A DNA stretch of 64,000 bases from contig NZ_MTQP01000064.1 in assembly GCF_001984175.1 (NCBI RefSeq), forward strand, positions 186,001 to 250,000, read 5' to 3'. This DNA comes from Saccharothrix sp. ALI-22-I (GTDB lineage Bacteria > Actinomycetota > Actinomycetes > Mycobacteriales > Pseudonocardiaceae). Every line of letters begins with the position of its first letter. Position 1 is the first letter of the stretch. A program made the translations under genes and the position numbers. This document shows positions 26,042-61,145 of the stretch, one piece after another. The notes under the pieces are model-generated. The model was not told where the DNA came from. It saw nothing but the letters and a program-made list of their open reading frames with translations, and made no database searches.

Positions 26042-26220
26042 TCGCGAGAGTCGAACCCCCAGACCCCGAGAGTCGAACCCCCAAGTCAACGTTCGACTCT
26101 CGCGTTCCGAACGTACGACTCACGCGCGTGTCCAACGTTCGGAACGTGCGTGTCCAACGTTCGGAACGTGCGTGTCCTGCGTTGGGAACAGGCGAGTTCA
26201 ACGCTCGGAACGTGCGAGCT
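26042..26220 (-). repeat. Repeat array A: 22-bp units between fumC and an EamA gene
   Basis: Read on the minus strand the array has four consecutive 22-base units of the form GTTCCGAACGTT + GGACACGCRC with variants (GTTCCGAGCGTT + GAACTCGCCT; GTTCCCAACGCA + GGACACGCAC). Inverted units follow around the palindrome CGTACGTTCGGAACG, then two copies of GGGGGTTCGACTCTCG. It lies between convergent genes and encodes the last residues of the EamA protein. Confidence 0.9.
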
Positions 26221-27112
26221 GGGCGTTTGGCTCGAGCTGGGGCGGGAGGGCGGTGTCGGCCGTGCGCCCTCGTAGGCCGATCACGCAGCCCAAGGCCACC
26301 GCCGCAGCGCCCAGCACCGCCACGGCGGTCAGTTCCTGCGCACCCAGAGCGACCGACGCCGCCAGCCCCGCCACCGGCATCAGGCCGATCAGCACGCCGG
26401 CCCGGTCCGCGCCCAACCGCGCCACCGCGAAGTACCAGAGCCCGAACGCCACGGTCGTCAGCACGACCCCCAGCACCACCATCGCCGTGCCTTCCCGCAC
26501 CGAAGGCACCTGCCACCCGCCGAACACCGTCCCCAACGCCCCACCGGCCACGGCCGCGAGCAGGCAGCACCACGTCGACACCGCCACCCCGCCCAGCCGG
26601 CGCACCACACCCACCGCGAACAGCGTGAACGACACCTCGCCCGCCATCGTCAACAACGCCAGCACCAGCCCCGGCCCGTGCCACGCCCCACCGCCGGACA
26701 GCACCACCACCCCGCCGACCACGACCACTGCGCCCACCACCGCGAGCACGGCCGGTTTCCGCCCCGCCACCAGCGGCGCGACCAACGCCAACACCAACGG
26801 ACTCGCACCGAGCACGGCCGCGACGAACCCCGGCTCGGCGTACCGCTGCGCGAACAGCAGGCACGCGTTGAACCCCAGCATCCCGGTCGCCACCAGCCCG
26901 ACCAGCGCCGGCCAGTCCCGCCGCCCCGGCACCGGCAGCCGCCCGCCCCGCAGGTAGATCCACGCGAGCAGCGCCAACCCGGCCAACGCGTACCGCATCG
27001 CTTGCCCCGCGAGCAGCGGATATTCCAGCAGCATGCCGCTCACCGGCACGGATGCGCCCACCATCACCGCTGCCAACGCACCTGACGCGATCGCGGTCCT
27101 CGTAGTTCTCAT
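26198..27112 (-). CDS. EamA/DMT-family transporter
   Basis: About 304 residues with ten hydrophobic helices in two EamA repeats (for example LAGQAMRYALAGLALLAWIY, and VLGVVLTTVAFGLWYFAVA in the second half). It probably exports a small metabolite; the substrate is unknown. The last residues (QLARSER and stop) are encoded within repeat array A, so the array has supplied the stop codon. ATG 27112 starts 47 bases from the divergent MocR regulator, a common pairing in which the regulator controls the exporter. Confidence 0.85.
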   Translation of the reverse strand: MRTTRTAIASGALAAVMVGASVPVSGMLLEYPLLAGQAMRYALAGLALLAWIYLRGGRLPVPGRRDWPALVGLVATGMLGFNACLLFAQRYAEPGFVAAVLGASPLVLALVAPLVAGRKPAVLAVVGAVVVVGGVVVLSGGGAWHGPGLVLALLTMAGEVSFTLFAVGVVRRLGGVAVSTWCCLLAAVAGGALGTVFGGWQVPSVREGTAMVVLGVVLTTVAFGLWYFAVARLGADRAGVLIGLMPVAGLAASVALGAQELTAVAVLGAAAVALGCVIGLRGRTADTALPPQLEPNAQLARSER

Positions 27113-27132
27113 GCCCAGAACTCTCACCGACC

Positions 27133-27180
27133 AGTGGTCCAGGTTTAAGCTCCACTTCGATGAGCGCCAACTGGACCACT
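27133..27180. promoter_or_regulatory. Candidate MocR operator spanning the regulator start codon
   Basis: A perfect 10-bp inverted repeat, AGTGGTCCAG (27133-27142) and CTGGACCACT (27171-27180), is separated by 28 bases. It lies in the short divergent region between the EamA gene and the MocR gene, with the right arm inside the regulator's coding sequence. The spacing places the arms nearly four helical turns apart. Regulator identity is inferred from position. Confidence 0.55.
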
Positions 27181-28530
27181 TCCCGCGAACTCCTCCTCCC
27201 CGCCCCGCAGGGCCGGCGCGCGGTGGAGTCCGAGCTGCGCCGCGCGGTGCGGGACGGACGCCTCGCGCCGGGCACCCGCCTGCCGTCCAGCCGCGACCTG
27301 GCGGCCCAGCTCGGCGTCGCCCGCGGCACCGTCACGGCCGCGTACGCGCAGCTCATCGGCGAGGGTTACCTGACCGCACGGCGTGGTTCAGGCACCGTCG
27401 TCGCCGCCGCCGTCACGTGGCCGGGCGCGGTCGCCGCCGACCCCGAGCCCGCCCCGCGCTTCCGGTACGACCTGCGGCCGGGCGTGCCCGCGTTGAGCGC
27501 GTTCCCGCGTGAGGAGTGGTTGCAGGCGCAGAAGTCGGCACTGATGGACCTGTCCACCGACGACCTCGGCTACCCTGATCCGGCCGGTTTCGGGCCGCTG
27601 CGCCGTGAGCTGGCGGACTACCTGGGCCGGGTGCGCGCGGTGGCCGCGCGACCGTCCGAAGTGGTCGTCACGAACGGCGCGGCGGAGGGGATCTCGTTGC
27701 TGGGCCGGGTGTTGCACGCGGCCGGGCACCGCAGTGTGGCGGTCGAGGAGCCGAGTCACTTCGGCGGCGCGGAGATGCTGGCGTCGCACGGCCTGACCAT
27801 CTGCCTGATTCCCGTTGACGACAAAGGTCTTCGCGTCGATCTGCTGTCCAAAACGGACTGTCGTGCCGTGTTCGTCACGGCGGCGCACCAGTTCCCGTTG
27901 GGTGTCGTGCTGCACCCGACGCGTCGCCGTGCCCTGTTGGAGTGGGCGCGCGCGTGCGACGGGTTGGTGGTGGAGGACGACTACGACGCCGAGCACCGTT
28001 ACGACCGGCCGGCTCTGGGGGCGATGCAGGCGCTCGACCCGACGCGCGTGGTGTACCAGGGCAGTGCGAGCAAGGTCCTGGCGCCCGCGTTGCGGCTGGG
28101 GTGGCTGGTGTTGCCGAGCGCGCTGCGCGATGTCGTCGTGGACCGCAAACGTCTGGACGACCTCGGCACCGGGACGTTGCACCAGGCCGCGTTCGCCCGG
28201 CTGCTCAGCACCGGCGGGTACGACCGGCACCTGCGCCGCACGCGTCAGCTGTACCGGGCTCGGCGGGACGCGTTGCTGGACGAACTGCGCAACGTCCTGC
28301 CGGACTGGGAGCCGATCGGGGTGGCGGCGGGCTTGCACGTCGTCCTGCGGCTGCCGGAGGGCACGGACGACGTGGCGTTGCAGGACCGGCTGGCCCGGCG
28401 TGGCGTCAACGCTCTGGCGTTGGCCAATTACGCCCGGACGCCGATGTTCCCCGGACTGGTCCTCGGGTACGCGGCGTTGACGCCGGACCGGCTCCGGGAA
28501 GCCGTCCGAGAGCTGCGCGCGGCGATCTAA
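27160..28530 (+). CDS. MocR/PdxR-family transcriptional regulator
   Basis: A 456-residue fusion. Residues 10-80 are a GntR winged helix (ELRRAVRDGRLAPGTRLPSS, RDLAAQLGVARGTVTAAYAQL). Residues 110-456 are a fold-type I aminotransferase-like domain with VVTNGAAEGISLLGRVL, a VVEDDYDAEHRYD block and the PLP lysine in YQGSASKVLAPALRLGW. Such regulators sense PLP or amino acids such as GABA, taurine or ectoine precursors. It is divergent from an EamA exporter and probably controls it. Confidence 0.9.
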   Translation: MSANWTTSRELLLPAPQGRRAVESELRRAVRDGRLAPGTRLPSSRDLAAQLGVARGTVTAAYAQLIGEGYLTARRGSGTVVAAAVTWPGAVAADPEPAPRFRYDLRPGVPALSAFPREEWLQAQKSALMDLSTDDLGYPDPAGFGPLRRELADYLGRVRAVAARPSEVVVTNGAAEGISLLGRVLHAAGHRSVAVEEPSHFGGAEMLASHGLTICLIPVDDKGLRVDLLSKTDCRAVFVTAAHQFPLGVVLHPTRRRALLEWARACDGLVVEDDYDAEHRYDRPALGAMQALDPTRVVYQGSASKVLAPALRLGWLVLPSALRDVVVDRKRLDDLGTGTLHQAAFARLLSTGGYDRHLRRTRQLYRARRDALLDELRNVLPDWEPIGVAAGLHVVLRLPEGTDDVALQDRLARRGVNALALANYARTPMFPGLVLGYAALTPDRLREAVRELRAAI

Positions 28531-28559
28531 GCCGGTTTTTGTCGGTGGTCGGGTGCACC

Positions 28560-30134
28560 ATGGTCCACGTGTTGTTCACCGAAGTCGTCGAGACGTCCGC
28601 CGCGGTCACGGCGACGCGTTCCCGCCTGGCCAAGGTCGCCGCCCTGGCCGAGCTGGTGCGCCGGATGAGCACGCCCGCGGTGGTGTCGTTCCTGGTCGGC
28701 GTGCCCAGCCAGGGGCGGATCGGCGCGGGCTGGCGCACCGTGTTCGACCTGGCCGTACCGCCGGCCCCGCAGCCTTCGCTCACGGTGTCCGAAGTGGACG
28801 AGGCGCTGGGCGCGTTCGCGTCGGCCGGCGGCAGGGGTTCGACAGCACGGCGTGCGGCGTTGCTGACCGACCTGTTCGGCAGAGCCACGGCGGCCGAACA
28901 GGACTTCCTGCGTCGGCTGCTGACCGGGGAACTGCGCCAAGGTGCACTCGAAGGGGTGATGTTGGACGCGATAGCGCGGGCGGCCGACGTGCCCGGCGAG
29001 GTGGTGCGGCGGGCGTTCATGCTCTCGGGGAAGCTGCCGGAGACGGCCGTGGCCGCGATGACCGGCGAGGACGCCCTGGCCCGGTTCCGGCTGGAAGTCG
29101 GCCGCCCGGTGCGGCCGATGCTCGCTTCACCGGCGGAGTCGCTGAACGAGGCGCTGGCCGAGTTGGGGTCGTGCGTGGTGGAGCACAAGCTGGACGGCGC
29201 GCGCATCCAGGTCCACCGGTCGGGTGACGAGATCCGCATCTTCACCCGGACGTTGCGCGAGATCACCGCGACGGTGCCCGAGTTGGTGGAGTTGGTGCGC
29301 GGGCTGCCCTGCACGTCGGTGGTGCTGGACGGCGAGACGCTGGCGTTGAACGACGACGGCAAGCCCCGGCCGTTCCAGGAGACGATGAGCAGATTCGGCG
29401 CTCTGCTCGATGCCGCCTCCGCTGGGAAGCGCACGTCGGCGGGAGACGTCCGTGAGCTGCTGCTGAGCCCGTTCTTCTTCGACTGCCTGCACCTGGACGG
29501 CGTGGATCTGCTCGACGAGCCGCTGCGGGCGCGGCTGGACGCGTTGCGCGCGGTGGCCGGTCGACACGTCATCCCGGGAGTGGTCGCGCCTTCCGAGGAC
29601 GACGCGGCCCAGGTGCTGGACGAGGCGTTGGCCGCCGGTCACGAAGGCGTGATGGTGAAGTCACTCGATTCGGTGTACGCGGCGGGCCGGCGTGGGCGGG
29701 CGTGGCAGAAGGTGAAGCCGGTGCACACGCTCGACCTGGTGGTGCTGGGCGTCGAGTGGGGCAGCGGTCGGCGCAAGGGTTTGCTGTCGAACCTGCACCT
29801 GGGTGCGCGCGACCCCGACGGCGGGCCGCCGATCATGGTCGGCAAGACGTTCAAGGGGCTCACCGACGAGCTGCTGGCGTGGCAGACGCGGGAGCTGATG
29901 GCGATCGCGACGGAGAAGACGGACTGGGCGGTGATGGTCAGACCGGAACTGGTGATCGAGATCGAGTTGGACGGCGCGCAGGTCAGTCCCCGGTACCCCG
30001 GCGGGGTGGCGCTGCGGTTCGCCCGGGTGCTCCGGTACCGGCCGGACAAGGACGCGGGCGAAGCGGACACGATCGACGCGGTCCGCGCGCTGCTCCCGAA
30101 GCGCGGGGCGGGCCAGGAAGACACGACTGGGTGA
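28560..30134 (+). CDS. ligB: ATP-dependent DNA ligase (LigB type)
   Basis: A 524-residue ligase resembling mycobacterial LigB. An N-terminal helical DNA-binding domain (residues 1-200; GELRQGALEGVMLDAIARAA) leads to the nucleotidyltransferase motif I VEHKLDGARIQVH with the adenylated Lys. Motif III is VVLDGETLAL, motif IV EGVMVKSL and motif V WQKVKPVHTLDLVVL. An OB-fold follows (PRYPGGVALRFARVLRYR, KDAGEADTIDAV). The start is ATG 28560; GTG 28569 is possible. It is non-essential in mycobacteria and may act in repair. Confidence 0.93.
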   Translation: MVHVLFTEVVETSAAVTATRSRLAKVAALAELVRRMSTPAVVSFLVGVPSQGRIGAGWRTVFDLAVPPAPQPSLTVSEVDEALGAFASAGGRGSTARRAALLTDLFGRATAAEQDFLRRLLTGELRQGALEGVMLDAIARAADVPGEVVRRAFMLSGKLPETAVAAMTGEDALARFRLEVGRPVRPMLASPAESLNEALAELGSCVVEHKLDGARIQVHRSGDEIRIFTRTLREITATVPELVELVRGLPCTSVVLDGETLALNDDGKPRPFQETMSRFGALLDAASAGKRTSAGDVRELLLSPFFFDCLHLDGVDLLDEPLRARLDALRAVAGRHVIPGVVAPSEDDAAQVLDEALAAGHEGVMVKSLDSVYAAGRRGRAWQKVKPVHTLDLVVLGVEWGSGRRKGLLSNLHLGARDPDGGPPIMVGKTFKGLTDELLAWQTRELMAIATEKTDWAVMVRPELVIEIELDGAQVSPRYPGGVALRFARVLRYRPDKDAGEADTIDAVRALLPKRGAGQEDTTG

Positions 30135-30199
30135 TCATGGGCCGAAAATGTACGGAAACACTGTCACCGGCCCTCGGTTGAAACTACGGGTCCATTCAG

Positions 30200-30391
30200 G
30201 TGACGTCGATCAGCGCGGAAAGCCTGTCCTACAGCGTCGCCTTCCCCCACAGCGGTGGCATCCAGGCGTCCGTCGGGCCGAGCCTCGGCGGCGGGACCTT
30301 CGGGTTTCGGGACTTCCCGGCGATCGACGTCGGCCTGCTGGTGGTCGACGGCACGTCCGCGCTGGTCCTCCAGCCCGGCGTCATCCCCTGA
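30200..30391 (+). CDS. Orphan 63-residue ORF, possible gene fragment
   Basis: A frame from GTG 30200 reads MTSISAESLSYSVAFPHSGG and continues to LVVDGTSALVLQPGVIP with almost every third base G or C, as in true genes here. No clear RBS precedes it and an in-frame stop lies 8 codons upstream. The sequence looks like the middle of a beta-rich domain, so it may be a remnant of a larger lost gene. I recognise no family. Confidence 0.35.
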   Translation: MTSISAESLSYSVAFPHSGGIQASVGPSLGGGTFGFRDFPAIDVGLLVVDGTSALVLQPGVIP

Positions 30392-30493
30392 GCCGGGTAC
30401 CGCCCCCCGTCTGGGGACCGCCCCGCATCGGGGGTCGGAGCCGCAGTAGTGTGGCCTTGGAGGAACGCACAACCTCAGACCCCGTATCGATGA

Positions 30494-31993
<1,500 letters not shown>

Positions 31994-32030
31994 TGCGGTT
32001 CTGACACCCCGATCTGGACAGGTGGACCAG

Positions 32031-32984
32031 GTGGACGAAGCCGTCGCGGTGAAAGACCTGGTGAAGGTCTACAAGAGCGGCCAGAGACCGGCCGTGGACG
32101 GGCTGGGCTTCGCGGTCCGCCGGGGTGAGGTGTTCGGCCTGCTCGGCCCGAACGGGGCGGGCAAGACGACCACCGTGGGAGTACTGACCACCAGGGTCCG
32201 GCCGACGTCCGGCACGGCCCTGGTGGAAGGCGTGGACGTGGTCGCGGACTCGCAGCGGGCACGGCAGCTGCTCGCCGTCGTGCCGCAGCGCAACAACCTG
32301 GACCGGGCCCTGAACGTCCGGCACAACCTGCTGTTCCACGCCGCCTACCACGGCATCGGGCGCGCGGAACGGGTCCGGCTGGCCGACGAGATCCTGGAGC
32401 GGATGGGGCTCAAGGACCACGCGACGAGCCTGGTGGACACGCTTTCGGGCGGCCAGGCGCAGCGGTTGATGATCGCGCGCGCCCTGATGCACCGGCCGAA
32501 GGTGCTGTTCCTGGACGAACCGTCGACCGGTCTCGACCCGCAGGCCCGGCTGTTCGTGCACGACCGGGTGACCGCGCTGCACGCGGACGGCGTCACGGTC
32601 GTGCTCACCACGCACGACATGGACGAGGCGCACAAGCTGTGCGACCGGGTCGGCATCGTCGACCACGGCAAGCTGCTCGCCCTCGACTCCCCCGACGAGC
32701 TGACCAGGACCCTGCCGGGCAGCACCACGCTCAGCGTCACGGTCACCCTCGACGGCACCGGTCCCGAGCCGGTGACCGCGGGGCTGGGCAAGGTCGAGGG
32801 CGTGCAGCGGGTGGAGAACGTGCAGGACATGTTCCGCCTCTACACCGACGTCGCGCCCGCCGCGGCGCTGCCGGAGGTGCTGCGCACCCTCGAACGGCTC
32901 GGCACACCGGTCACCGACCTGTCCATCGGGACGCCGAGCCTGGAAGACGTGTTCATCCACCTGACCGGGCGGGAGCTGCGATGA
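32031..32984 (+). CDS. DrrA-type ABC transporter ATP-binding protein
   Basis: About 317 residues. Walker A is GLLGPNGAGKTTTVG, the Q-loop AVVPQRNNLDRAL, the signature LSGGQAQRLMIARAL, Walker B VLFLDEPSTGLD and the switch His VLTTHDMDEAHKLC. A C-terminal DUF4162-like domain (residues 230-317) ends DLSIGTPSLEDVFIHLTGRE. The family exports antibiotics or lipids. GTG 32031 has AGGTGG upstream; an in-frame GTG at 32022 is the alternative. It overlaps the permease gene by ATGA. Confidence 0.88.
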   Translation: MDEAVAVKDLVKVYKSGQRPAVDGLGFAVRRGEVFGLLGPNGAGKTTTVGVLTTRVRPTSGTALVEGVDVVADSQRARQLLAVVPQRNNLDRALNVRHNLLFHAAYHGIGRAERVRLADEILERMGLKDHATSLVDTLSGGQAQRLMIARALMHRPKVLFLDEPSTGLDPQARLFVHDRVTALHADGVTVVLTTHDMDEAHKLCDRVGIVDHGKLLALDSPDELTRTLPGSTTLSVTVTLDGTGPEPVTAGLGKVEGVQRVENVQDMFRLYTDVAPAAALPEVLRTLERLGTPVTDLSIGTPSLEDVFIHLTGRELR

Positions 32985-33748
32985 CGTCGCTGCGCACGTT
33001 CAACGCCATCCTGTGGCGGGACATCTTCGTGACCGGTCGGGAACTGCCGAGCTTCCTGGCGCAGGTGATCATCCAGCCGTTCTTCATCCTGTTCATCTTC
33101 GCCAAGGTGCTCGGCGACATCGGGTTCGTGCAGGACGACTTCGCGGCCGTGCTGCTGCCCGGCATCGTGGCGATGAACGGGTTCCTCGGCGCGTTGCAGA
33201 ACACCACGTTGCCGCTGGTACTGGACTTCTCGTGGACGCGCGAGATCGAGGACCGGTTGCTGGCGCCCATCCCGATCCCGCTGGTCGCGGTGGAGAAGAT
33301 GGTGTTCGGGGCGTTGCGCGGCCTGCTCGCCGCCGTGCTGATGGTCCCGATCGGGTTCGTGATGCTGGACATCACCTGGCCCGCGTCCGGCATACCCACG
33401 GCTCTGGTGGTGGTCGTCCTGGGCTCGTTGGCGGGGGCGGCGGTGGGCATGGTCATCGGCACGTCGGTCTCACCGCGGCACATCACCGTGATGTTCGCGG
33501 TGATCCTGACGCCGTTGCTGTTCACCGGTTCGGCCCAGTTCCCGTGGCCCGCGTTGGACAGCCTGCGCTGGTTCCAGGTCCTGTGCGCCCTCAACCCGCT
33601 CACCTACGTCAGCGAGGGCATGCGGGCCGTCCTGGTCCCCGACGTGCCCCACATCCCGCTGTGGGTGTGCTTCGTAGTGCTGATCGCCTCGATCCTCGGC
33701 TTCGGCGCCCTGGGCATGCGCGGCTTCATGCGCCGAGCGCTGGACTAG
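32981..33748 (+). CDS. ABC-2 type permease (DrrB-like)
   Basis: A 255-residue membrane protein with six hydrophobic segments, including FLAQVIIQPFFILFIFAKVL and ALNPLTYVSEGMRAVLV, a conserved ABC-2 motif. ATG 32981 overlaps the ATPase stop, so the two form one exporter. Together they resemble daunorubicin-type or linearmycin-type resistance pumps, but no biosynthetic cluster is adjacent. Repeat array B begins three bases after the stop. Confidence 0.88.
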   Translation: MTSLRTFNAILWRDIFVTGRELPSFLAQVIIQPFFILFIFAKVLGDIGFVQDDFAAVLLPGIVAMNGFLGALQNTTLPLVLDFSWTREIEDRLLAPIPIPLVAVEKMVFGALRGLLAAVLMVPIGFVMLDITWPASGIPTALVVVVLGSLAGAAVGMVIGTSVSPRHITVMFAVILTPLLFTGSAQFPWPALDSLRWFQVLCALNPLTYVSEGMRAVLVPDVPHIPLWVCFVVLIASILGFGALGMRGFMRRALD

Positions 33749-33751
33749 CAC

Positions 33752-33863
33752 GTTCCGAACGTTCAACTCGCCTGTTCCGAACGTTGGACACGCGCGTTCC
33801 GAACGTTGGACACGCGCGAGAGTCGTACGTTCGACTCTCGCGGTCCGAGGGTTCGACTCACGG
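33752..33863 (+). repeat. Repeat array B: 22-bp units after the ABC permease
   Basis: Five tandem units on the plus strand: GTTCCGAACGTT + CAACTCGCCT, then twice GTTCCGAACGTT + GGACACGCGC, then a 24-base unit GAGAGTCGTACGTT + CGACTCTCGC (palindromic at its ends), then GGTCCGAGGGTT + CGACTCACGG. It lies between convergent genes and has the CCGAAC core subtype also found in array A. Confidence 0.92.
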
Positions 33864-33928: not shown

Positions 33929-35311
33929 TCAGGAGGCGTAGTCCTCCAGCATCTCGGTGACCAGTGCGGCGATCGGGGAGCGCTCCGACCGGGTCAACGT
34001 CATGTGCGCGAACAGCGGGTGGCCCTTCAGCTTCTCGATGACCGCCGCGACGCCGTCGTGCCGGCCGACGCGCAGGTTGTCGCGCTGCGCCACGTCGTGG
34101 GTGAGCACCACCCGCGAGTTGGTGCCCAGCCGCGACAGCACGGTGAGCAGCACGTTGCGCTCCAACGACTGCGCCTCGTCCACGATCACGAACGAGTCGT
34201 GCAGCGACCGGCCCCGGATGTGGGTCAGCGGCATGACCTCCAGCATGCCGCGGTCCATGATCTCCTCCACCACGTCCTGGCTGACCAGCGCGCCGAGGGT
34301 GTCGAACACCGCCTGCGCCCACGGCTGCATCTTCTCGCTCTCGGAACCGGGCAGGTAGCCCAACTCCTGCCCGCCCACCGCGTACAGCGGACGGAAGACC
34401 ACGACCTTGCGGTGCTGGCGGCGTTCCATGACCGCCTCCAGGCCCGCGCACAGCGCGAGCGCCGACTTGCCGGTGCCGGCCCGTCCGCCCAGCGAGACGA
34501 TGCCGACCTCGGTGTCGAGCAGCAGGTCCAGCGCCACGCGCTGCTCGGCCGACCGGCCGTGCAGCCCGAACGCCTCGCGGTCACCCCGCACCAGCCGGAC
34601 CTGCTTGTCCGGCGTGACCCGGCCCAACGCGCTCGACGTGCCCGCCAGCAGGCGCAGCCCGCTGTGGCACGGCAGCTCCGCGACGCGGGCGAGGTCGAGG
34701 TCGAACAGCGACGGGTCGATCACGCCGTCGCGGTACAGCGCGTCCACCACGGACTGGTCCACGTCCACGTCGGACATCCCGGAATACCCCGACAGCGTGA
34801 CGTCGTGGGCCCGGTACTCCTCGGCGGCGAGACCGACCGCGCCCGCCTTGACGCGCAGCGGCATGTCCTTGGTGACCAGCGTGACGACGTTGCCCTCGGC
34901 CGCGAGGTTGAGCGCGCAGGCCAGTATCCGGGCGTCGTTGGAGTCCGTGCGGAAACCCGCGGGAAGCACCTCCGGATCGGAGTGGTTGAGCTCGACGCGC
35001 AGCGTGCCGCCGTGATCACCGATCGGCACCGGGTTGTCCAGCCGACCGTGCTGGAGCCGCAAGTCGTCGAGCAGTCGCAGCGCTTCCCGGGCGAACCAGC
35101 CCAGTTCGGGGTGGTGCCGCTTGCCCTCCAGCTCACTGATCACCACGAGCGGCAGCACGACCTCGTGCTCGGCGAACCGCGTGGAGGCCAGGGGGTCGGA
35201 GAGCAGCACGGACGTGTCCACCACGTACGTGTGGGTCGTCGGCGCGCCACGGCGCCGGGAAGTGCTGCGCGATGAGCCTGAGGAACGGCTCGCGGGTCGT
35301 CGTGCGTTCAC
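33929..35311 (-). CDS. phoH2: PhoH2-type PIN-PhoH RNA helicase/ribonuclease
   Basis: A 460-residue fusion. An N-terminal PIN nuclease ([41 protein letters not shown]) carries the acidic residues of the metal site. A PhoH ATPase follows ([34 protein letters not shown]). PhoH2 of M. tuberculosis (Rv1095) has RNA helicase and RNase activity; there it is paired with a small antitoxin-like gene, which I do not see here. GTG 35311 with GGGAG five bases upstream is preferred over the longer open frame. Confidence 0.92.
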
Positions 35312-51907: not shown

Positions 51908-52027
51908 CGCGAGAGTCGAACACTCAGGCCGCGCGTGTCCAACGTTCAGAACACGCGTGTCCAACGTTCAGAACGCGTATGTCCAACGTTCAGGACCCCC
52001 GAATTCAACGCTCAGAACACGCGTGCG
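51908..52027 (-). repeat. Repeat array C: 22-bp units between greA and lrp
   Basis: On the minus strand: GTTCTGAGCGTT + GAATTCGGGG, GTCCTGAACGTT + GGACATACGC, GTTCTGAACGTT + GGACACGCGT, GTTCTGAACGTT + GGACACGCGC, then a unit GGCCTGAGTGTT + CGACTCTCGC. It abuts the lrp stop codon and has the CTGAAC core subtype. Confidence 0.92.
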
Positions 52028-52522
52028 TCAGACGATGTGCTCCAGCAGCGGGCGCACGCGTGGCGGGACGGGGGTCGAGAGCGCGATCGACGTGGACAGG
52101 CGCTGCACGCCCGGCACGTCCACGATCGAGTCGATCACCCGCTGCAAGTCGGCGTTCGACCGGGCCACCACCCGCACGAACAGGTCACCCGGTCCGGTGG
52201 TCGCATGGACCTCGCACACCTCGTTGATGGCGGCCAACCCGTCGGACACCTCGTGCCGTCGTCCCTGCGCGATCTCCAGCACGGCGAACGCGGTCAACCC
52301 GTAGCCCATCGCGGCCAGGTCGAGCGCCGGCGGGAAGCCGGTCAGCACACCGCGCGCCACCAGCCGGTCCAGCCGGGCCTGCACCGTGCCGCGCGCCACG
52401 CCGAGCCGCCGTGAGCACTCCAGCACGCCCAGCCGGGGCTCGTCGGTGAGCAGCAACAACAGCCGTGCGTCCAAGGCGTCCACAGGCTGGTCAGAGTGTT
52501 CAGTTTGTGGATCTGAGGGCAT
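52028..52522 (-). CDS. Lrp/AsnC-family transcriptional regulator
   Basis: A 164-residue regulator: N-terminal helix-turn-helix (LLLLLTDEPRLGVLECSRRL; GVARGTVQARLDRLVARGVL) and C-terminal RAM ligand-binding domain (EVCEVHATTGPGDLFVRVVA). It is divergent from hppD and probably controls tyrosine breakdown in response to an aromatic amino acid. ATG 52522 lies at the edge of a palindrome that could be its operator. Its stop codon abuts array C. Confidence 0.9.
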   Translation of the reverse strand: MPSDPQTEHSDQPVDALDARLLLLLTDEPRLGVLECSRRLGVARGTVQARLDRLVARGVLTGFPPALDLAAMGYGLTAFAVLEIAQGRRHEVSDGLAAINEVCEVHATTGPGDLFVRVVARSNADLQRVIDSIVDVPGVQRLSTSIALSTPVPPRVRPLLEHIV

Positions 52523-53795: not shown

Positions 53796-53828
53796 GGCCG
53801 GTTCGGGTACCCCCTGGGCCGGCCTTTC
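53796..53828 (+). terminator. hppD terminator
   Basis: GGCCGG (53796-53801) pairs with CCGGCC (53819-53824) with additional G.C pairing inside, followed by TTT, 16 bases past the stop. Confidence 0.65.
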
Positions 53829-53920
53829 CTGTCGGAACGCTGACGATGGCCTACCGGGTGCGCCGAGACCGGTACTCTCGGTGTGGGGACATCTCACACA
53901 GCATTCACCTGGAGGGTGGC

Positions 53921-54151: not shown

Positions 54152-54188
54152 GGTTCTGTCCGGCCGACGTTCGCGCCATAGTGGAACC

Positions 54189-54461
54189 ATGTGTCGCAAC
54201 ATCAGGGTGCTCCACAACTTCGAACCGCCCGCCACCGAGGACGAGGTCCGTGCGGCGGCCGTGCAGTACGTGCGCAAGGTGAGCGGCTCGGCCCACCCGT
54301 CGGCGGCGAACCAGGAGGCGTTCGACGCCGCCGTCGAGGCGGTCGCCGAGGCCACCCGCGTCCTCCTCGATGCCCTGGTCACCAAGGCCCCACCCCGTGA
54401 CCGCGAGGTAGAAGCCGCCAAGGCCAAGGAACGCTCCGCCGCCCGCTACGGCCCCCGCTAA
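54189..54461 (+). CDS. DUF2277-family protein
   Basis: A 90-residue small protein with the DUF2277 hallmark N-terminus MCRNIRVLHNFEPPATEDEV and continuing helices (AAAVQYVRKVSGS; FDAAVEAVAEATRVLLDAL). The length fits the family, whose function is unknown. Array D begins three bases after the stop. Confidence 0.88.
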   Translation: MCRNIRVLHNFEPPATEDEVRAAAVQYVRKVSGSAHPSAANQEAFDAAVEAVAEATRVLLDALVTKAPPRDREVEAAKAKERSAARYGPR

Positions 54462-54463
54462 CC

Positions 54464-54730
54464 CCGAGAGTCGAACCCCCAGCCCCCGCGTGTCCAACGC
54501 TCAGGACCCCCGAATTCAACGCTCAGGTACCGGGAGTCGACCGGTCGAGCAGCACGAAACCCCGCGCTCGGACCGGCTGAGCGCGGGGTTCGGGTGTTCT
54601 GAACGTAGAACTCGGGGGTCCTGAACGTAGGACTCTCGCGACCTGAACGTTCGACTCTCGCGTTCTGAATGTTCAACTCACGTGTTCTGAGCGTTGGACA
54701 CGCGCGTTCGCAACGTTGGACACGCGGGGG
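54464..54730. repeat. Repeat array D: two opposed arms of 22-bp units around a terminator
   Basis: The left arm (54464-54540) holds minus-oriented units (GTCCTGAGCGTT + GGACACGCGG, and a unit with GAATTCGGGG). The right arm (54593-54727) holds six plus-oriented units, among them GTTCTGAACGTA + GAACTCGGGG, GACCTGAACGTT + CGACTCTCGC, GTTCTGAATGTT + CAACTCACGT and GTTCTGAGCGTT + GGACACGCGC. The arms are complementary in part (GAGAGTCGAAC against GTTCGACTCTC). A run of nine G bases follows. Confidence 0.9.
54558..54590. terminator. Hairpin inside array D
   Basis: AACCCCGCGCTC (54558-54569) and GAGCGCGGGGTT (54579-54590) form a perfect 12-bp stem between the two arms of array D. There is no U-tract on the plus strand. 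Confidence 0.7.
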
Positions 54731-54745
54731 GGGGTGGGGTGGGGG

Positions 54746-55897
54746 TTAGGTTAGGGCGGTTAGGAGGTCGGTGATCAGGTCGTCGGGGGACTCGATGCCG
54801 ACTGAGATGCGGATCAGGTCGGCGGGGACCTGGAGGAGTGAGCCGGCGGTGCTGGCGTGGGTCATGCGGCCGGGGTGTTCGATCAGGGATTCGACGCCGC
54901 CCAGGGACTCGGCGAGGGTGAAGAGCTCGGTGCGGGAGCAGACGCGGAGGGCCGCTTCCTCGCCGCCTTCCACGGTGAACGAGATCATGCCGCCGAAGCG
55001 GCGCATCTGCTTCGCGGCGATCTCGTGGCCGGGGTGGTCGGGGAGGCCGGGGTAGAGGACCCGGGTGACCTTCGGGTGCCGGAGCAGGGCTTCGGCGATC
55101 TTCTCGGCGTTGTCCGAGTGCTTCTCCATGCGCACTTCGAGCGTCTTGATGCCGCGCAACGTCAACCACGCGTCGAACGGCCCCGGCACCGCGCCCGCGC
55201 CGTTCTGGAGGAAGCCGAACTGCGCGTCCAGGTCGTCGTCCGACGTGATCAAAGCCCCGCCGACGACGTCCGAGTGCCCGCCCACGTACTTGGTGGTCGA
55301 GTGCAGCACCACGTCCGCACCCAGCTCCAACGGGTTCTGCAGGTACGGCGAGGCGAACGTGTTGTCCACCACCAGCCGCGCCCCCGCCGAGTGCGCGACC
55401 TGCGCGAGCACGGCGATGTCGGCGATGTTGAGCAACGGGTTGGTGGGCGTCTCCACCCAGATCACCTTGGTGTTCGGACGCACGGCCGCACGCACCGCGT
55501 CGACGTCGGACAGCGCCACCGGCGTGTGCTCGACGCCCCACTGGCCGAGCACCTTGTCGATCAGCCGGAACGTGCCGCCGTACGCGTCGTTCGGGATGAC
55601 GACGTGATCACCAGGGCGGCACATCGCACGCAGAGCGGCGTCGGTCGCGCCCATGCCGGAGGCGAACGCGCGCCCGTGCCGTCCGCCTTCGAGCGCCGCC
55701 AGGCACTCCTCCAGCGCGGCACGGGTGGGGTTGCCGGTGCGGGAGTACTCGAACCCGCCGCGCAGCCCGCCGACGCCGTCCTGGGCGTAGGTGGAGGTGG
55801 CGTGGATCGGCACGATGACCGAGCCCGTCGTCGGGTCGGGGTCCTGCCCGGCGTGGATAGCCCTGGTCGCGAAACCGTAGTGGCCGGTGTCCGTCAT
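54746..55897 (-). CDS. metB: Cystathionine gamma-synthase
   Basis: A 383-residue PLP enzyme of methionine synthesis and transsulfuration. The PLP lysine lies in VLHSTTKYVGGHSDVVGGAL; YSRTGNPTRAALEECLAALE and DNTFASPYLQNPLELGAD are family blocks. ATG 55897 gives MTDTGHYGFATRAIHAGQDP. With cbs two genes away it makes a reverse-transsulfuration and methionine cluster as in Rv1077-Rv1079. Separating synthase from lyase activity by sequence alone is not certain. Confidence 0.92.
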   Translation of the reverse strand: MTDTGHYGFATRAIHAGQDPDPTTGSVIVPIHATSTYAQDGVGGLRGGFEYSRTGNPTRAALEECLAALEGGRHGRAFASGMGATDAALRAMCRPGDHVVIPNDAYGGTFRLIDKVLGQWGVEHTPVALSDVDAVRAAVRPNTKVIWVETPTNPLLNIADIAVLAQVAHSAGARLVVDNTFASPYLQNPLELGADVVLHSTTKYVGGHSDVVGGALITSDDDLDAQFGFLQNGAGAVPGPFDAWLTLRGIKTLEVRMEKHSDNAEKIAEALLRHPKVTRVLYPGLPDHPGHEIAAKQMRRFGGMISFTVEGGEEAALRVCSRTELFTLAESLGGVESLIEHPGRMTHASTAGSLLQVPADLIRISVGIESPDDLITDLLTALT

Positions 55898-55916
55898 GGC
55901 TCTAGGGTACGGCGAT

Positions 55917-55958
55917 CGAAAAAGCAAGCGCCCGTCGGCTGGATGGCCGACGGGCGCT
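55917..55958 (-). terminator. Terminator of the RDD-protein gene
   Basis: On the minus strand AGCGCCCGTCGGC and GCCGACGGGCGCT (55927-55939 with 55946-55958) make a 13-bp stem followed by TGCTTTTTC. Confidence 0.9.
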
Positions 55959-55984
55959 CGGGTGAAACTCGACGGGTAACCCCG

Positions 55985-57088
55985 TCACCACTGCTGGGGC
56001 GGCTGCTGGCCGTACGGGTTGGGCTGCTGCGGCTGGCCGTACGGGTTCGACGCCGGCGGCTGACCGTAGGGGTTCGGCTGCTGCTGGCCGTACCCGCCAC
56101 CACCACCGGGGTAACCACCGGGGGCCTGGGCCGCCGGGGCGTTCACCACGACGGTGCCCATGATCTTGTCCGCCCACGTCTGCTTCTTCGCTTCCCACAG
56201 CGGCGCGAACCAGCCCGCGTAGCAGGCGATCGAGTCGACGAAGTGGCACAGGTGGCGGACGAAGGCGTTGCCGAAGCCGATCGGCTGCCCCGTCTCCTCC
56301 TTGATGAGCTTGACCTTGGCGATCTTCTTGCCCATCGACTGGCCGGTGGTGCCCGCCAGGTACCAGGAGTTGTAGATGATGAAACCGAGGTAGGCCACGT
56401 ACCCGACCCCGTACATGATCAGCATGATCGTCGGGTCACCGGAGAGCCCGCCGATGGTCAGCAGGATGGCGAGCACGAGACCGGGCGCGACGTAGTCGAT
56501 CAGCGCGCCGACCGCGCGGCTGCCCCACTCCGCGTACCCGCCGGCGGGCGGCGGAGGCCCGTACGCGGGCTGGCCGTAGCCGGGCTGCGCGCCCCACGCC
56601 TGCTGCTGCGGCTGCCCGTACGGGTTCGCCTGAGGCTGGGCCGGCGGCTGGCCATAGGGGTTGGACGGCGGCTGCTGGCCGTACGGGTTCGGCTGAGGCT
56701 GGCCCTGCGGCTGACCGTACGGGTTGGACGGCGGCTGCTGACCGTACGGCTGCTGGCCGTACTGGGCGGGCGGCTGCTGACCGTAGCCAGGCTGCTGGGC
56801 CGGGAACGATCCCGAGCCCGGCTGCTGCACCGGCTGGCCGTAGGGGTTGGACGGGGGCTGCTGCTGGGTCGCGCCCGGGGACACGACCTGGGTCGCGTCC
56901 GGGTTCGAGCCGGGCTGCTGGCCGGAGGGCACGACCTGGGTCGCCTCCGGCGGCGGGAAAGCAGGGGGCTGACCGCCGCTCGGCACGACCTGGGTCGCGT
57001 CGGCGTTCGGGGGCTGGGCACCCTGCCCCTGCTCCTGCTGGTGTTGACCGCCGAACTGCTGGTTCTCTGGCGGCTGCGGAGCGTTCAT
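55985..57088 (-). CDS. Proline/glutamine-rich RDD-family membrane protein (Pra-like)
   Basis: A 367-residue protein. Residues 1-185 are low complexity with many NPYGQP-type repeats and three DATQVVSPG-like motifs. Residues 185-320 are an RDD domain (WGSRAVGALIDYVAPGLVLA; WYLAGTTGQSMGKKIAKVKL), with the R and D residues in the first helix. A second NPYGQP tail ends the protein. The mycobacterial counterpart (Rv1078, proline-rich antigen) has the same build and position. ATG 57088 excludes a spurious Arg-rich extension. Confidence 0.88.
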   Translation of the reverse strand: MNAPQPPENQQFGGQHQQEQGQGAQPPNADATQVVPSGGQPPAFPPPEATQVVPSGQQPGSNPDATQVVSPGATQQQPPSNPYGQPVQQPGSGSFPAQQPGYGQQPPAQYGQQPYGQQPPSNPYGQPQGQPQPNPYGQQPPSNPYGQPPAQPQANPYGQPQQQAWGAQPGYGQPAYGPPPPAGGYAEWGSRAVGALIDYVAPGLVLAILLTIGGLSGDPTIMLIMYGVGYVAYLGFIIYNSWYLAGTTGQSMGKKIAKVKLIKEETGQPIGFGNAFVRHLCHFVDSIACYAGWFAPLWEAKKQTWADKIMGTVVVNAPAAQAPGGYPGGGGGYGQQQPNPYGQPPASNPYGQPQQPNPYGQQPPQQW

Positions 57089-57194
57089 CGGAGTTTCCAA
57101 CCCCCTTGGCACGGGCCGTAGGCGTATGAGTCGGTGGCCAACGCTAGCGGATGCCGCCGCGCCGGCCACCGGCAACCGGTCAACCCGTCCCAGA

Positions 57195-58565
57195 TCAGCG
57201 ACCGGCGAGGAAACCCAGGATGTCCTGCCGGGTGACGACGCCGGCGGGCTTTCCGTCCTCCAGGACCAGTGCACCGTCCGCTGAGGACAGTGCGTGCATG
57301 GCCGAACTGATCGACTCGCCCGCGCCGATCGTGGGCAGCTTCAACGACATGTGCCGGTCCAGCCGGTCGGTCAGCTGCGCCTTGCCGGTGAACAGCGCGT
57401 CGAGCAGGTCCCGCTCGTTGACCGCGCCGGCGACCTCGGCGGCCATCACCGGCGGCTCGGCGTTGACGACCGGCATCTGGGACACGCCGTACTCGCGCAT
57501 GATCGCGACCGCCTCGGCGACCGTCTCATTGGGATGGCCGTGCACGAGGTCGGGCATCGTGCCGTCCTTGCGCCGCAACACGTCCCCGACCGTCGCGCCG
57601 GACATGTCCGGCGACAGGAAGCCGTACTGCGCCATCCACTTGTCGTTGAACACGCTGGACAGGTAGCCGCGTCCGCCGTCGGGCAGCAGCACCACGATCA
57701 CGTCGTCCGGGCCCGCGTGCTCGGCCACCCGCAGCGCCGCCGCGACGGCCATGCCGCACGACCCGCCGACGAGCAGACCCTCCTCGCGGGCCAGTCGCCG
57801 GGTGATCTCGAACGAGTCGGAGTCGCTCACCGCCACGATCTCGTCGCACACGGTCCGGTCGTAGGCGTCCGGCCAGAAGTCCTCGCCGACGCCCTCGACC
57901 AGGTACGGCCGGCCGGTGCCGCCGGAGTAGACCGAGCCCTCCGGGTCCGCGCCGATGACCTTCACCCGGCCCTCGGAGACCTCCTTGAGGTACTTCCCGG
58001 TGCCCGAGATGGTGCCGCCGGTGCCGACGCCCGCGACGAAGTGGGTGATCCGGCCCTCGGTCTGCCGCCACACCTCGGGACCGGTGCCGTGGTAGTGGCT
58101 GGCCGGGTTCTCCGGGTTGGCGTACTGGTTGGGCTTCCACGCGCCGGGGATCTCGGCGACCAGGCGGTCGGAGACGTTGTAGTACGAGTCGGGGTGTTCC
58201 GGCGCGACCGCGGTCGGGCACACCACGACCTCGGCCCCGTAGGCCTTGAGCACGTTGCGCTTGTCCACGCTGACCTTGTCCGGGCAGACGAAGACGCACT
58301 TGTAGCCCTTCCGCTGGGCCACCAGCGCCAGGCCGACGCCGGTGTTGCCCGACGTGGGCTCGACGATCGTGCCGCCGGGCTTGAGCTCGCCGCTGCGCTC
58401 GGCCGCCTCCACCATGCGCAGGGCGATGCGGTCCTTCACGCTGCCGCCGGGGTTGAGGTATTCGACCTTGGCCAGGATGAGCGGCTGGAGCCCTTCGGCC
58501 ACCGTGTTCAACTTCACCAGCGGCGTGTTGCCGACCAGGTCGACAACGCTCTCGACGTACTCCAC
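57195..58565 (-). CDS. cbs: Cystathionine beta-synthase
   Basis: A 456-residue PLP enzyme joining serine and homocysteine. The PLP lysine is in NPGGSVKDRIALRMVEAAE; EPTSGNTGVGLALVAQRKGY and VAGVGTGGTISGTGKYLKEV are family blocks. A pair of CBS domains (residues 335-456; GVSQMPVVNAEPPVMAAEVA) ends the protein and may bind adenosyl ligands. GTG 58565 with GGAAGG 7 bases upstream is chosen over GTG 58580. It is divergent from the SGNH hydrolase gene. Confidence 0.94.
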   Translation of the reverse strand: MEYVESVVDLVGNTPLVKLNTVAEGLQPLILAKVEYLNPGGSVKDRIALRMVEAAERSGELKPGGTIVEPTSGNTGVGLALVAQRKGYKCVFVCPDKVSVDKRNVLKAYGAEVVVCPTAVAPEHPDSYYNVSDRLVAEIPGAWKPNQYANPENPASHYHGTGPEVWRQTEGRITHFVAGVGTGGTISGTGKYLKEVSEGRVKVIGADPEGSVYSGGTGRPYLVEGVGEDFWPDAYDRTVCDEIVAVSDSDSFEITRRLAREEGLLVGGSCGMAVAAALRVAEHAGPDDVIVVLLPDGGRGYLSSVFNDKWMAQYGFLSPDMSGATVGDVLRRKDGTMPDLVHGHPNETVAEAVAIMREYGVSQMPVVNAEPPVMAAEVAGAVNERDLLDALFTGKAQLTDRLDRHMSLKLPTIGAGESISSAMHALSSADGALVLEDGKPAGVVTRQDILGFLAGR

Positions 58566-58680
58566 GACGGCGCCTTCCACTTCTTGAGATGACCCGCTGA
58601 GCCTATATGGGTGTCGCGGCGGTCGGCGGGTGGACGATTCGGTCGGTGGACGATGAACACCGGGAGAAGGGGTGGTCTCG

Positions 58681-59499
58681 ATGCGGGGGTTCCGGCTCCT
58701 CGCGGTGGTCGCGGGCGCGTTGGGCGGGTTGACCGGGGTCGCGTACGGGCTGTTCACCGAGCAGTCCAGGCGGGCGCGGGTGGTGATCGGGGTGCCGGAC
58801 GCGCCGCCGTTGCGGGCGGACGGGGTGTACGGCGTGCACAGCGCTCGTCCGGCCGGGCGGCGGCTGAGCGACGTGGACGGGGCGGGGGCGCAGGTCCGGT
58901 TCGCGGTACTCGGCGATTCGATGGCGGCCGGGCTGGGGGTGGACGACCCGGCCGAGTTACCGGGTGTCGTGCTGGCGACGGGGTTGGCCGACGAGATCGG
59001 GTCGCCGGTGCGGCTGGAGACGTACGCGATCTCCGGGTCCACGACCCGCGACCTGTCGGCTCAGGTGGACCGGGTGGTGGCCGACCCGCCGGACCTGGCG
59101 CTGGTGATCATCGGCGCGAACGACGTGACCACGCGGCTGTCGATCCCGGTGTCGGCGGCGTTGCTGGGCGCGGAGGTGCGGCGGCTGCGTGCGGCGGGGG
59201 TCGGGGTGGTGGTGGGGACGTGCCCGGACCTGGGGACGGTGCGGCCGATCGGTGAGCCGCTGCGGTCGGTGGCGCGTGGCTGGTCACGGCGGTTGGCGCG
59301 GGCCCAGCGGGTCGAGGTGGAACGGGCGGGTGGCGTGGCGGTGGCGTTGGGGGATCTGCTGGCGGCGGAGTTCCACGCACGGGCGGACTACTTCAGCCGT
59401 GACCGGTTCCACCCGAGCGCGGCGGGGTACGAGGCGGCGACGTCGATCCTGTTGGCACCGTTGTGCGGCGTCCTTCGTCACGAGTGGTGGCCGCACTGA
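58681..59499 (+). CDS. SGNH/GDSL-family hydrolase, membrane-anchored
   Basis: A 272-residue predicted esterase or lipase. An N-terminal hydrophobic helix (FRLLAVVAGALGGLTGVAYG) anchors or exports it. Block I is VLGDSMAAGLGV (nucleophile Ser), block III IIGANDVTTRL and block V DRFHPSAAGYEAA with the catalytic Asp-x-x-His. The position between cbs and a thiolase matches Rv1075c. AAGGGG precedes ATG 58681. Confidence 0.9.
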   Translation: MRGFRLLAVVAGALGGLTGVAYGLFTEQSRRARVVIGVPDAPPLRADGVYGVHSARPAGRRLSDVDGAGAQVRFAVLGDSMAAGLGVDDPAELPGVVLATGLADEIGSPVRLETYAISGSTTRDLSAQVDRVVADPPDLALVIIGANDVTTRLSIPVSAALLGAEVRRLRAAGVGVVVGTCPDLGTVRPIGEPLRSVARGWSRRLARAQRVEVERAGGVAVALGDLLAAEFHARADYFSRDRFHPSAAGYEAATSILLAPLCGVLRHEWWPH

Positions 59500-59555
59500 A
59501 CGGGCGTTAACTAGGCTGCACGTCACACGTTGCGGCGAAACAAAGGAGTTCCGTA

Positions 59556-60776
59556 ATGCCTGAGGCCGTCATCGTTTCCGCTGCCCGGTCGCCCATCGGG
59601 CGCGCGGGCAAGGGCTCGCTCAAGGACATGCGCGCCGACGACCTGACCGTGCAGGTCCTCAAGGCCGCGCTGGCGAAGGTTCCGCAGCTCGACCCGAACG
59701 ACATCGACGACCTCATGCTGGGCTGCGGCCTGCCCGGCGGCGAGCAGGGTTTCAACCTGGGCCGCGTGGTGTCCGTGCTGGCGGGGTACGACAACCTGCC
59801 CGGCACCACGGTCACGCGTTACTGCGCGTCCAGCGTGCAGACGACCCGGATGGCGCTGCACGCCATCAAGGCGGGCGAGGGTGACGTGTTCATCAGCGCC
59901 GGCGTGGAGACGGTGTCGAGCTTCGCGCGCGGGTCGTCCGACTCGTGGCCGGGCACGCACAACCCGGTGTTCGCCGACGCCGAGGCCCGCACGGTCGCGG
60001 TCGCGCAGTCCGGCGCGTCGGAGTGGGTGGACCCGCGCGTCAACGGGCAGTTGCCGGACGTCTACATCGCCATGGGCCAGACGGCGGAGAACCTGGCGCT
60101 GACCAAGGGCGTGTCGCGCGAGGAGATGGACCAGTTCGGCGTGCGGTCGCAGAACCTCGCCGAGAAGGCCATCGCCAACGGCTTCTGGGCGCGCGAGATC
60201 ACCCCGATCACGCTGCCGGACGGCACGGTCGTGTCGACCGACGACGGCCCGCGACCCGGCGTGACGATCGAGGGCGTGTCGGGGCTCAAGCCGGTGTTCC
60301 GGCCGGACGGGCGGGTCACCGCGGGCAACTGCTGCCCGTTGAACGACGGCGCGGCGGCGTTGGTGATCATGAGTGACGTGAAGGCGCGGGAGCTGGGCAT
60401 CACGCCGTTGGCGCGGATCGTGTCGACCGGCGTGTCCGGGTTGTCGCCGGAGATCATGGGGCTCGGGCCGGTGGAGGCGTCGCGGCGGGCGTTGGCACTG
60501 GCCGGGATGTCGGTGTCGGACATCGACCTGGTGGAGATCAACGAGGCGTTCGCGGCGCAGGTCATCCCGTCGTACCAGGACCTGGGGATCGATCTCGACC
60601 GGCTGAACGTCAACGGTGGCGCGATCGCGGTCGGTCACCCGTTCGGGATGACCGGTGCGCGGATCACCACGACGCTGATCAACTCGCTGCAGTTCCACGA
60701 CAAGCAGTTCGGGCTGGAGACGATGTGCGTCGGCGGTGGCCAGGGCATGGCCATGGTGATCGAACGGCTCAGCTGA
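59556..60776 (+). CDS. Acetyl-CoA C-acyltransferase (thiolase)
   Basis: A 406-residue FadA-type thiolase for beta-oxidation or acetoacetyl-CoA synthesis. The nucleophile Cys90 is in TRYCASSVQTTRMA, the base His in GGAIAVGHPFGMTGAR and the second Cys in METMCVGGGQGMA-like sequence (LETMCVGGGQGMAMV). AAAGGAG precedes ATG 59556. It corresponds in position to fadA3 (Rv1074c). Confidence 0.93.
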   Translation: MPEAVIVSAARSPIGRAGKGSLKDMRADDLTVQVLKAALAKVPQLDPNDIDDLMLGCGLPGGEQGFNLGRVVSVLAGYDNLPGTTVTRYCASSVQTTRMALHAIKAGEGDVFISAGVETVSSFARGSSDSWPGTHNPVFADAEARTVAVAQSGASEWVDPRVNGQLPDVYIAMGQTAENLALTKGVSREEMDQFGVRSQNLAEKAIANGFWAREITPITLPDGTVVSTDDGPRPGVTIEGVSGLKPVFRPDGRVTAGNCCPLNDGAAALVIMSDVKARELGITPLARIVSTGVSGLSPEIMGLGPVEASRRALALAGMSVSDIDLVEINEAFAAQVIPSYQDLGIDLDRLNVNGGAIAVGHPFGMTGARITTTLINSLQFHDKQFGLETMCVGGGQGMAMVIERLS

Positions 60777-60838
60777 ACCGCTGAACCGCGTCACGTTTAC
60801 TGTTACCAGGCGTCCTACCGTTGAGTAGGGAGGTCGGG

Positions 60839-61051
60839 GTGACGATGCCTTACGTGTGGTGGCACAGCGGGTACGACCGGCTGTGTCACGCATTTCCCGT
60901 GCGGCAGGCCTCGGAGGTGTACTTCGAGGCGGCCTGCGCCCACTCGGTGCCGCCGGATCTCGTGGTCCGGACACCGGGTGGGGCGCTGTGCGTGCCGTGC
61001 CTGGTCGAGGTGGGTTCAGCCATGGACGACGACCACGGCTGGCGCGACTGA
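60839..61051 (+). CDS. Small Cys/His protein, possible zinc-binding
   Basis: A 70-residue protein: MTMPYVWWHSGYDRLCHAFP with further motifs FEAACAHSVPPD and ALCVPCLVEVG. The pattern H, C, C-x-H and C-x-x-C suggests a single zinc site. GGGAGG lies 5-6 bases before GTG 60839. I do not recognise a named family. Array E starts at the base after its stop. Confidence 0.65.
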   Translation: MTMPYVWWHSGYDRLCHAFPVRQASEVYFEAACAHSVPPDLVVRTPGGALCVPCLVEVGSAMDDDHGWRD

Positions 61052-61145
61052 CGCACGTTCTGAGCGTTCAACTCGGGTGTCCTGAACGTTGGACACGCGC
61101 GTTCTGGAGGTTGGACACGCGTGTTCTGGGGGTTGGACACGCGCG
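61052..61145 (+). repeat. Repeat array E: 22-bp units
   Basis: Four plus-oriented units: GTTCTGAGCGTT + CAACTCGGGT, GTCCTGAACGTT + GGACACGCGC, GTTCTGGAGGTT + GGACACGCGT, GTTCTGGGGGTT + GGACACGCGC, then a GGGACGCGCGGGG tail. It lies between convergent genes. Confidence 0.92.

Follow-up and report, generated by a model that had tools for sequence, protein, structure and literature searches.

Bidirectional intrinsic terminators between convergent genes are a known kind of element, and mycobacterial interspersed repetitive units are actinobacterial intergenic tandem repeats that touch stop codons; the latter presumably differ in unit length and sequence from the 22-bp repeat of the soil bacterium Saccharothrix sp. 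ALI-22-I that is the subject of this report. The main text of PMC3733652 describes repetitive extragenic palindromic (REP) sequences as concentrated in unidirectional and convergent gaps, with most of those between convergent genes of two species no more than 20 bp from a 3' end, and as sometimes supplying stop codons and sometimes residing inside UvrD/RecB-type genes, and parts of PMC2817692 and PMC8049555 tie them to the REP-associated tyrosine (RAYT) transposase. The 22-bp repeat was recognised in a stretch of 64,000 nucleotides (the window, in which a position equals the position on contig C61 minus 186000) of a 10.3-Mb genome in 69 contigs, here called G000, whose GreA protein shares 94-95% identity with its counterparts in Saccharothrix obliqua and S. 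algeriensis. With moderate confidence, we propose that its arrays represent a new mosaic repeat family resembling REP sequences and bacterial interspersed mosaic elements (BIMEs), which is spread by recombination and tolerated at the 3' ends of genes, and which, in opposed form, probably terminates transcription from both sides. No publication on this repeat was among the matches listed in literature searches; the main text of the Saccharothrix espanaensis genome paper (PMC3469384) contains no word starting with repeat, repetitive, crispr or palindrom, the words Actinobacteria, Saccharo-, Amycolatopsis, Frankia and Streptomyces are absent from the main text of PMC3733652, and Actinobacteria is absent from that of PMC2817692.

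The unit in G000 reads GTTCYGAACGTTGGACACGCGC, and its exact core GTTCNGAACGTT occurs 191 times (99 + 92) in the genome, against no copy of the reversed control; similarly, a unit profile, with thresholds set by hand, found 154 sites scoring above 12 in 848 kb, compared with 10 in one Markov-1 simulation of the same length. These two comparisons rule out a chance repeat, and the arrays lie where the earlier note had placed them. The organisation of the arrays was determined in a three-species sample of 1.65 Mb, consisting of 848 kb of G000 and 400 kb from each of the relatives G255 and G159, with genes called by a home-made codon-usage caller; the sample held 55 arrays of at least two units, and the exclusion of two arrays in coding frames and of single-unit matches left 53. 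A second G000 sample supplied 17 further arrays on other contigs, picked through exact core matches, and stretches of G254 and G031, from two other genera, were picked for containing matches; a further set of stretches from relatives, including those of Amycolatopsis thermalba and genus g45 described below, was likewise picked by core matches, with GreA loci scanned in addition.

Units were assigned to three kinds by positions 13-16, namely c ([GC]AAC/T), a (GGAC) and b (CGAC), and their order within a run follows a simple grammar. The step from unit to unit is 22 bp in 233 of 235 cases across the three species, and the run is polar, with a cap unit first and repeats after it: a c-unit leads 78 of 84 runs, and this kind makes up only 5 of the 235 later units. 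The earlier note had named the set of second halves correctly, and to this we can add that CAACTC... and GAATTC... are those of the cap, with GGACACGCGC and CGACTCTCGC coming after. We define the element as a polar run, cap plus repeats in a 22-bp register, of which one to three, often facing each other, compose an array. Runs contain 1 to 6 units, and the array forms comprise the single run, the inward pair (+-), the outward pair (-+) and three runs, with opposed runs present in 13/26, 6/13 and 9/14 arrays of the three species. The description of the units as tandem without spacers is thus right within runs; a centre, however, can lie between two opposed ones. A clustered regularly interspaced short palindromic repeat (CRISPR) array was rejected, as it had been before, because the units abut in register with recurring halves and no unique spacers; cas genes were not searched for.

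Inward pairs outnumber outward pairs by 8 to 2 in the first G000 sample, while outward pairs prevail in G255 (6 versus 0) and G159 (7 versus 2); since the second G000 sample, as read from its rows, has 8 outward and no inward pairs, these preferences mark no clean species difference. A fixed orientation of the run relative to the adjacent stop codon is ruled out by the varying share of stop-facing edges at which the cap is distal to the stop, which amounts to 16/37 in the first G000 sample, 16/22 in G255, 17/22 in G159 and, again read from rows, 22/28 in the second G000 sample. Of the G254 runs of at least two units, 19 of 27 are led by a c-like unit, a kind that also accounts for 24 of 56 later units, and in G031 such a unit leads only 2 of 19 runs, so the cap rule is well established for the three Saccharothrix-like species alone; the unit step is 21 bp in 45/56 cases in G254 and 22 bp in 55/56 in G031.

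Thirty of the 53 intergenic arrays lie in convergent, 21 in co-directional and 2 in divergent gaps, whereas 8.9, 27.3 and 16.8, respectively, are expected from non-coding length (binomial p 6.7e-11 for the convergent excess and 5.4e-7 for the divergent deficit), which bears out the bias in flanking-gene orientation that had been noticed in the window. The preference persists when arrays are counted per facing 3' end in gaps of at least 40 bp (0.097 convergent versus 0.046 co-directional, Fisher p 0.007). The median distance between a stop-facing edge and its stop codon is 10, 9.5 and 2 bp in the three species, and arrays in co-directional gaps sit near the stop of the upstream gene, at a mean relative position of 0.18 from stop to start (n=21). 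Because convergent and co-directional arrays alike lie near stops and divergent ones are rare, the rule is a position behind a gene: the fixed point is the 3' end of a gene, with convergent gaps preferred. The claim of the earlier note that all arrays are convergent is right for the five gaps of the window but not for the 848-kb G000 sample (13 convergent, 11 co-directional and 2 divergent among 26 intergenic arrays; the second G000 sample gave 11, 6 and 0 among 17), and a role specific to convergent transcription is not supported, given the 21 co-directional arrays and the larger divergent share in G254 and G031.

One of the two divergent cases lies between an mfd-like and a sugar-dehydrogenase-like gene and the other beside a short open reading frame (ORF) that may be a truncated gene, with names taken from a reading of the translations. 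Both in-frame arrays (L054:10781-14365 in G000 and segment 342273-345845 in G255) are in what seems to be the same UvrD/PD-(D/E)XK helicase-nuclease gene, with Pfam run on the G000 copy only, and the isolated single-unit matches of the unit-profile scan, eight of eight inside coding sequence, were taken as chance. The array at C62:169464-169613 of G000 adjoins a 77-codon ORF whose translation resembles the inner part of a longer protein, a possible sign that the array or some other event interrupted a gene.

All four features of REP placement given in the main text of PMC3733652 are also present in the 22-bp arrays. As with REPs and BIMEs, going by the parts of PMC3733652 and PMC2817692 that deal with them, the repeat is of high copy number and mostly extragenic, lies behind stops in convergent and unidirectional gaps, occurs in opposed orientations, supplies stop codons and has copies in a UvrD/RecB-type gene. 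The statement that this is no standard REP therefore stands for the tag and the transposase but not for the placement, and, because REPs show the same placement, placement alone is no pointer to a special insulating function. The differences lie in the lack of a constant GTAG tag, in a Y1 transposase found in only 3 of 20 array-rich genomes, and in units joined head-to-tail in register behind a cap; by analogy the arrays can be called BIME-like in placement, a likeness and not an identity. Binding of gyrase, IHF or DNA polymerase I is a further mark of BIMEs. The arrays also resemble REPINs, the persisting populations of inverted REP pairs able to form hairpins that are described in parts of PMC8049555, but each run here holds 1-6 units instead of one REP, and the transposase does not follow the arrays. 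Opposed arrays are further comparable to bidirectional intrinsic terminators, being predicted to form long stem-loops of which many fill the space between two stops; in contrast to such terminators, they are built from an interspersed repeat, and 6/10 single-run convergent arrays stand beside a separate strong hairpin. The runs may also bear some likeness to integron attC cores, and the b-units to a tRNA T-arm.

Comparison of the three species indicates that positions are kept while the sequence at them changes. Counting only gaps flanked by adjacent reciprocal best matches in both species, and taking those with an array in either one, we found the array common to both in 8/11, 7/11 and 9/12 gaps, at a median identity of 90-91% between reciprocal best proteins of the compared species. 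Copy number, run number and orientation differ between arrays at orthologous gaps, and array positions outlast their sequence. The a-units of G000 and G255 are as alike among other arrays of the same genome (0.830) as within one array (0.827), and less alike between orthologous (0.745) or non-orthologous (0.738) arrays of the two species; the corresponding values for same genome, within array and orthologous array are 0.775, 0.767 and 0.744 for G000-G159 and 0.762, 0.758 and 0.726 for G255-G159. In addition, four G255 arrays at separate loci share 90.7-95.2% identity over 167-225 bp, centre included, and three of these four loci carry an array in another species; such near-identical blocks would match the expectation for copying between established loci.

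The gap between the fumarase-family and EamA transporter genes, which carries an array in the window and also in relatives, illustrates this variation. Array length at this gap varied among array-rich species, no array is present in the array-rich G143, and the genes abut or overlap in several array-poor species. In G000, and apparently in several relatives too, the stop codon of the EamA gene is provided by the cap unit.

The unit is found in relatives and in the rest of the genome by both profile and core scans, yet its distribution is uneven. Among 297 genomes of the family, the exact core is high-copy only in G000 and in G228 (70 copies), all others having at most 14. A wider core, GAACGTNSRACWCNCG, splits the 25 genomes of the genus into 14 with 46-434 copies and 11 with 0-11; genomes with at least 40 core copies are here called array-rich, a cut of our own. 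On a fumarase-gene tree the 14 array-rich genomes form one group, which requires one change (support 82/84), and they were grouped together in 83% of bootstrap trees; this is a single-gene tree from 1392 of 4346 columns, with some over-long flanks left to column filtering, and its key fork is not a starred one. Elsewhere in the family the wider core reaches 231 copies in G254, 145 in G031, 79 in G228, 64 in G193 and 52 in G019, and other species sampled from those genera often have almost none. The repeat family is thus abundant in one Saccharothrix-like group and patchy in other Pseudonocardiaceae, with the caution that, because the motif drifts, a zero count may mean a changed unit and not a loss of arrays. 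Amycolatopsis thermalba (L093) has a cousin repeat of about 21 bp that scores weakly (14.4) against the profile.

Other arrangements of the units were observed outside the three species. In genus g45 (G228 and G201), a 128-bp form at L087:8500-8627, L088:9180-9307 and L089:9559-9686 consists of two units, a centre of about 40 bp and two inverted units, and its arms agree almost letter for letter, variants too; a sequence of Actinokineospora xionganensis (L105:6509-6615) has the same start, and its contig ends before the last unit. In G254 (L293-L302), units are found within recurring composites of about 180-330 bp that have a similar centre, a looser tie to stop codons and two divergent gaps among them.

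In the samples examined, we thus observed the placement at gene 3' ends, the run grammar, the shared positions, the likeness of units within a genome and the near-identical blocks at separate loci, and we propose the following account of them. Ectopic recombination or gene conversion would spread the arrays and keep them alike, and arrays would survive where they are least harmful, immediately behind stop codons. RNA transcribed through facing runs from either side would fold into a long stem-loop, and this may take the place of an ordinary terminator by ending transcription in both directions or protecting 3' ends. Opposed arrays fold well below shuffled sequences (mean z -8.3, -14.9 and -13.4), as is expected of any inverted repeat. 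Of the convergent gaps with opposed runs, 14/18 have no other hairpin of -15 kcal/mol or lower, and 6/10 single-run convergent gaps have a separate one; for comparison, the median best hairpin is -28 in 126 convergent gaps that have no array and are at least 40 bp long, and -20 in 100 random G159 windows. On the strength of these folds, opposed arrays are probably bidirectional terminators, and the terminator role suggested in the earlier note is plausible for these forms, the nucleoid-protein site that it offered as an alternative being no more than a possibility. We regard termination as a likely consequence in opposed forms, because of the confounding lack of room and because facing runs show no consistent covariation.

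Several observations weigh against this proposal. The difference in separate hairpins between opposed and single-run gaps (4/18 versus 6/10) is small and confounded by that lack of room, and single runs fold only modestly better than shuffles (group means z -0.9 to -2.9). Facing runs match each other no better than they match runs of other arrays (p 0.11, 0.91, 0.98 and 0.51), so that the stem as such gives little sign of selection; selection for run-to-run pairing was rejected, with no signal in four of five tests, the only one coming from the outward pairs of G159 (p 0.022). The same fumarase-EamA gene pair abuts or overlaps with no array in some relatives, so the array is dispensable there. 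The contrast that suggests homogenisation is smaller in both comparisons with G159, and it is absent for c-units in both G000 pairs (same genome 0.761 and 0.726, orthologous 0.764 and 0.762). Nothing that moves the arrays was found. In the other genera the stop-codon rule is looser, with 10 convergent, 4 co-directional and 2 divergent arrays in G254 (2/16 divergent) and 5, 5 and 2 in G031 (2/12 divergent), and the distance to a stop is tens to hundreds of base pairs for many G254 arrays.

Of the alternatives, the one that survives best, although we consider it unlikely, is that a DNA-binding protein recognises the units and that the cap marks where loading starts or stops. A spacing of 22 bp is about two helical turns and would put the sites on one face of the helix. 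Possible roles of the protein at gene ends would include DNA bending, gyrase recruitment and a block to RNA polymerase, and a change in its specificity would explain the joint change of a genome's units. The strict register and polar cap fit this view, as does the near-two-turn spacing in G254 and G031, and the equal similarity of a-units within and between arrays of one genome is not what plain local tandem duplication would give. Nevertheless, the block copying in G255 yields homogeneity with no protein involved, a distinct cap is rare at the head of G031 runs, and no candidate protein was found among the only two families looked for. A more specific form, in which the arrays are genome-wide polar loading arrays for a fast-changing sequence-specific protein, with the cap as the start and with site and protein changing together in each species, seems improbable to us.

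Purely neutral satellite DNA that fills the space behind genes and has no effect on transcription is another improbable explanation. The variation in copy number, run number and orientation at orthologous gaps and the scarcity of run-to-run covariation are what such DNA would show, but the 22-bp phasing and the cap-first grammar hold in three species, and positions persist over about 10% protein divergence, although copying could explain part of this pattern. Stable positions combined with jointly changing units make the arrays well suited to asking what maintains gene-end repeats: copying, tolerance or a transcript-ending function.

Strict REP/BIME elements spread by a RAYT (Y1) transposase are very improbable and already largely refuted: despite the REP-like placement, the supply of stop codons and the units inside a helicase-nuclease gene of the class named in the main text of PMC3733652, Y1_Tnp matches occur in only 7 of 43 genomes (two matches in G000, one in the array-rich G292 and two in G255 among them), and they do not follow the arrays, being found in 3/20 array-rich and 4/23 other genomes, while GTAG at unit positions 10-13 is frequent in G255 (41/84 units) but not constant (11/147 in G000 and 33/88 in G159). 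It is this REP-like placement with no Y1 transposase in 17/20 array-rich genomes, together with the polar grammar, that sets the repeat apart. A repeat borne by a reverse transcriptase was rejected as well, since RVT_1, present in 11/30 genomes including G000, G292, G143, G261 and G019, is absent from many array-rich ones (G288, G268, G206, G255, G159, G254, G031 and G228), and a known structured RNA family was rejected because the window gave no Rfam match at the arrays at gathering score.

In the window itself, the unit-profile scan found 31 units, in line with the roughly 30 estimated before, in six arrays and five gaps; the five places given in the earlier note are right, but the array at 54464 consists of two runs around a GC-rich hairpin and is counted here as two. 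The nearer edge of each array lies at most 18 bp from a stop codon. The first array (26044-26211; eight units, orientation --++----, kinds <bb< >bb> <aaac<) lies between the fumarase-family lyase gene (stop 26034, +) and the EamA transporter gene (26198-27064, -), these and the following families being assigned by Pfam, and the TGA stop of the latter is inside its cap unit. The second (33752-33863; five units, +++-+, kinds >caa> <b< >b>) lies between an ABC-2 permease gene (stop 33748, +) and a PIN-PhoH gene (33929-35224, -) and is followed by a strong separate hairpin. The third (51909-52018, -) is a single run of five units, <baaac<, between the GreA gene (stop 51840, +) and an Lrp/AsnC-type regulator gene (52028-52483, -), with a separate GC-rich hairpin between the GreA gene and the array.

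The fourth and fifth arrays share one gap. The run <bac< (54464-54529, -; three units) lies 2 bp past the stop of a DUF2277 gene (54207-54461, +), and the run >cabcaa> (54596-54727, +; six units), which is divisible into two arms, cab and caa, lies 18 bp from the stop of a gene for a Cys/Met pyridoxal phosphate (PLP)-dependent enzyme (54746-55897, -). Between these opposed runs, the centre (54530-54595) is predicted to form a GC-rich hairpin, and the best 40-nt fold outside the units in this gap is -30.8 kcal/mol. The last array (61057-61144, +) is a single run of four units, >caaa>, between an ORF of 68 amino acids (stop 61051, +), for which Pfam gave no match, and a Bax-inhibitor-1-like gene (61226-62026, -), and it too is followed by a separate hairpin.

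Two further features of the window were recorded apart from the arrays. The sole Rfam match at gathering score is a thiamine pyrophosphate (TPP) riboswitch at 3277-3387 on the minus strand, and tandem repeats of 27/63 bp occupy 56005-56776, within a reading frame of about 367 amino acids (55985-57088, minus strand).

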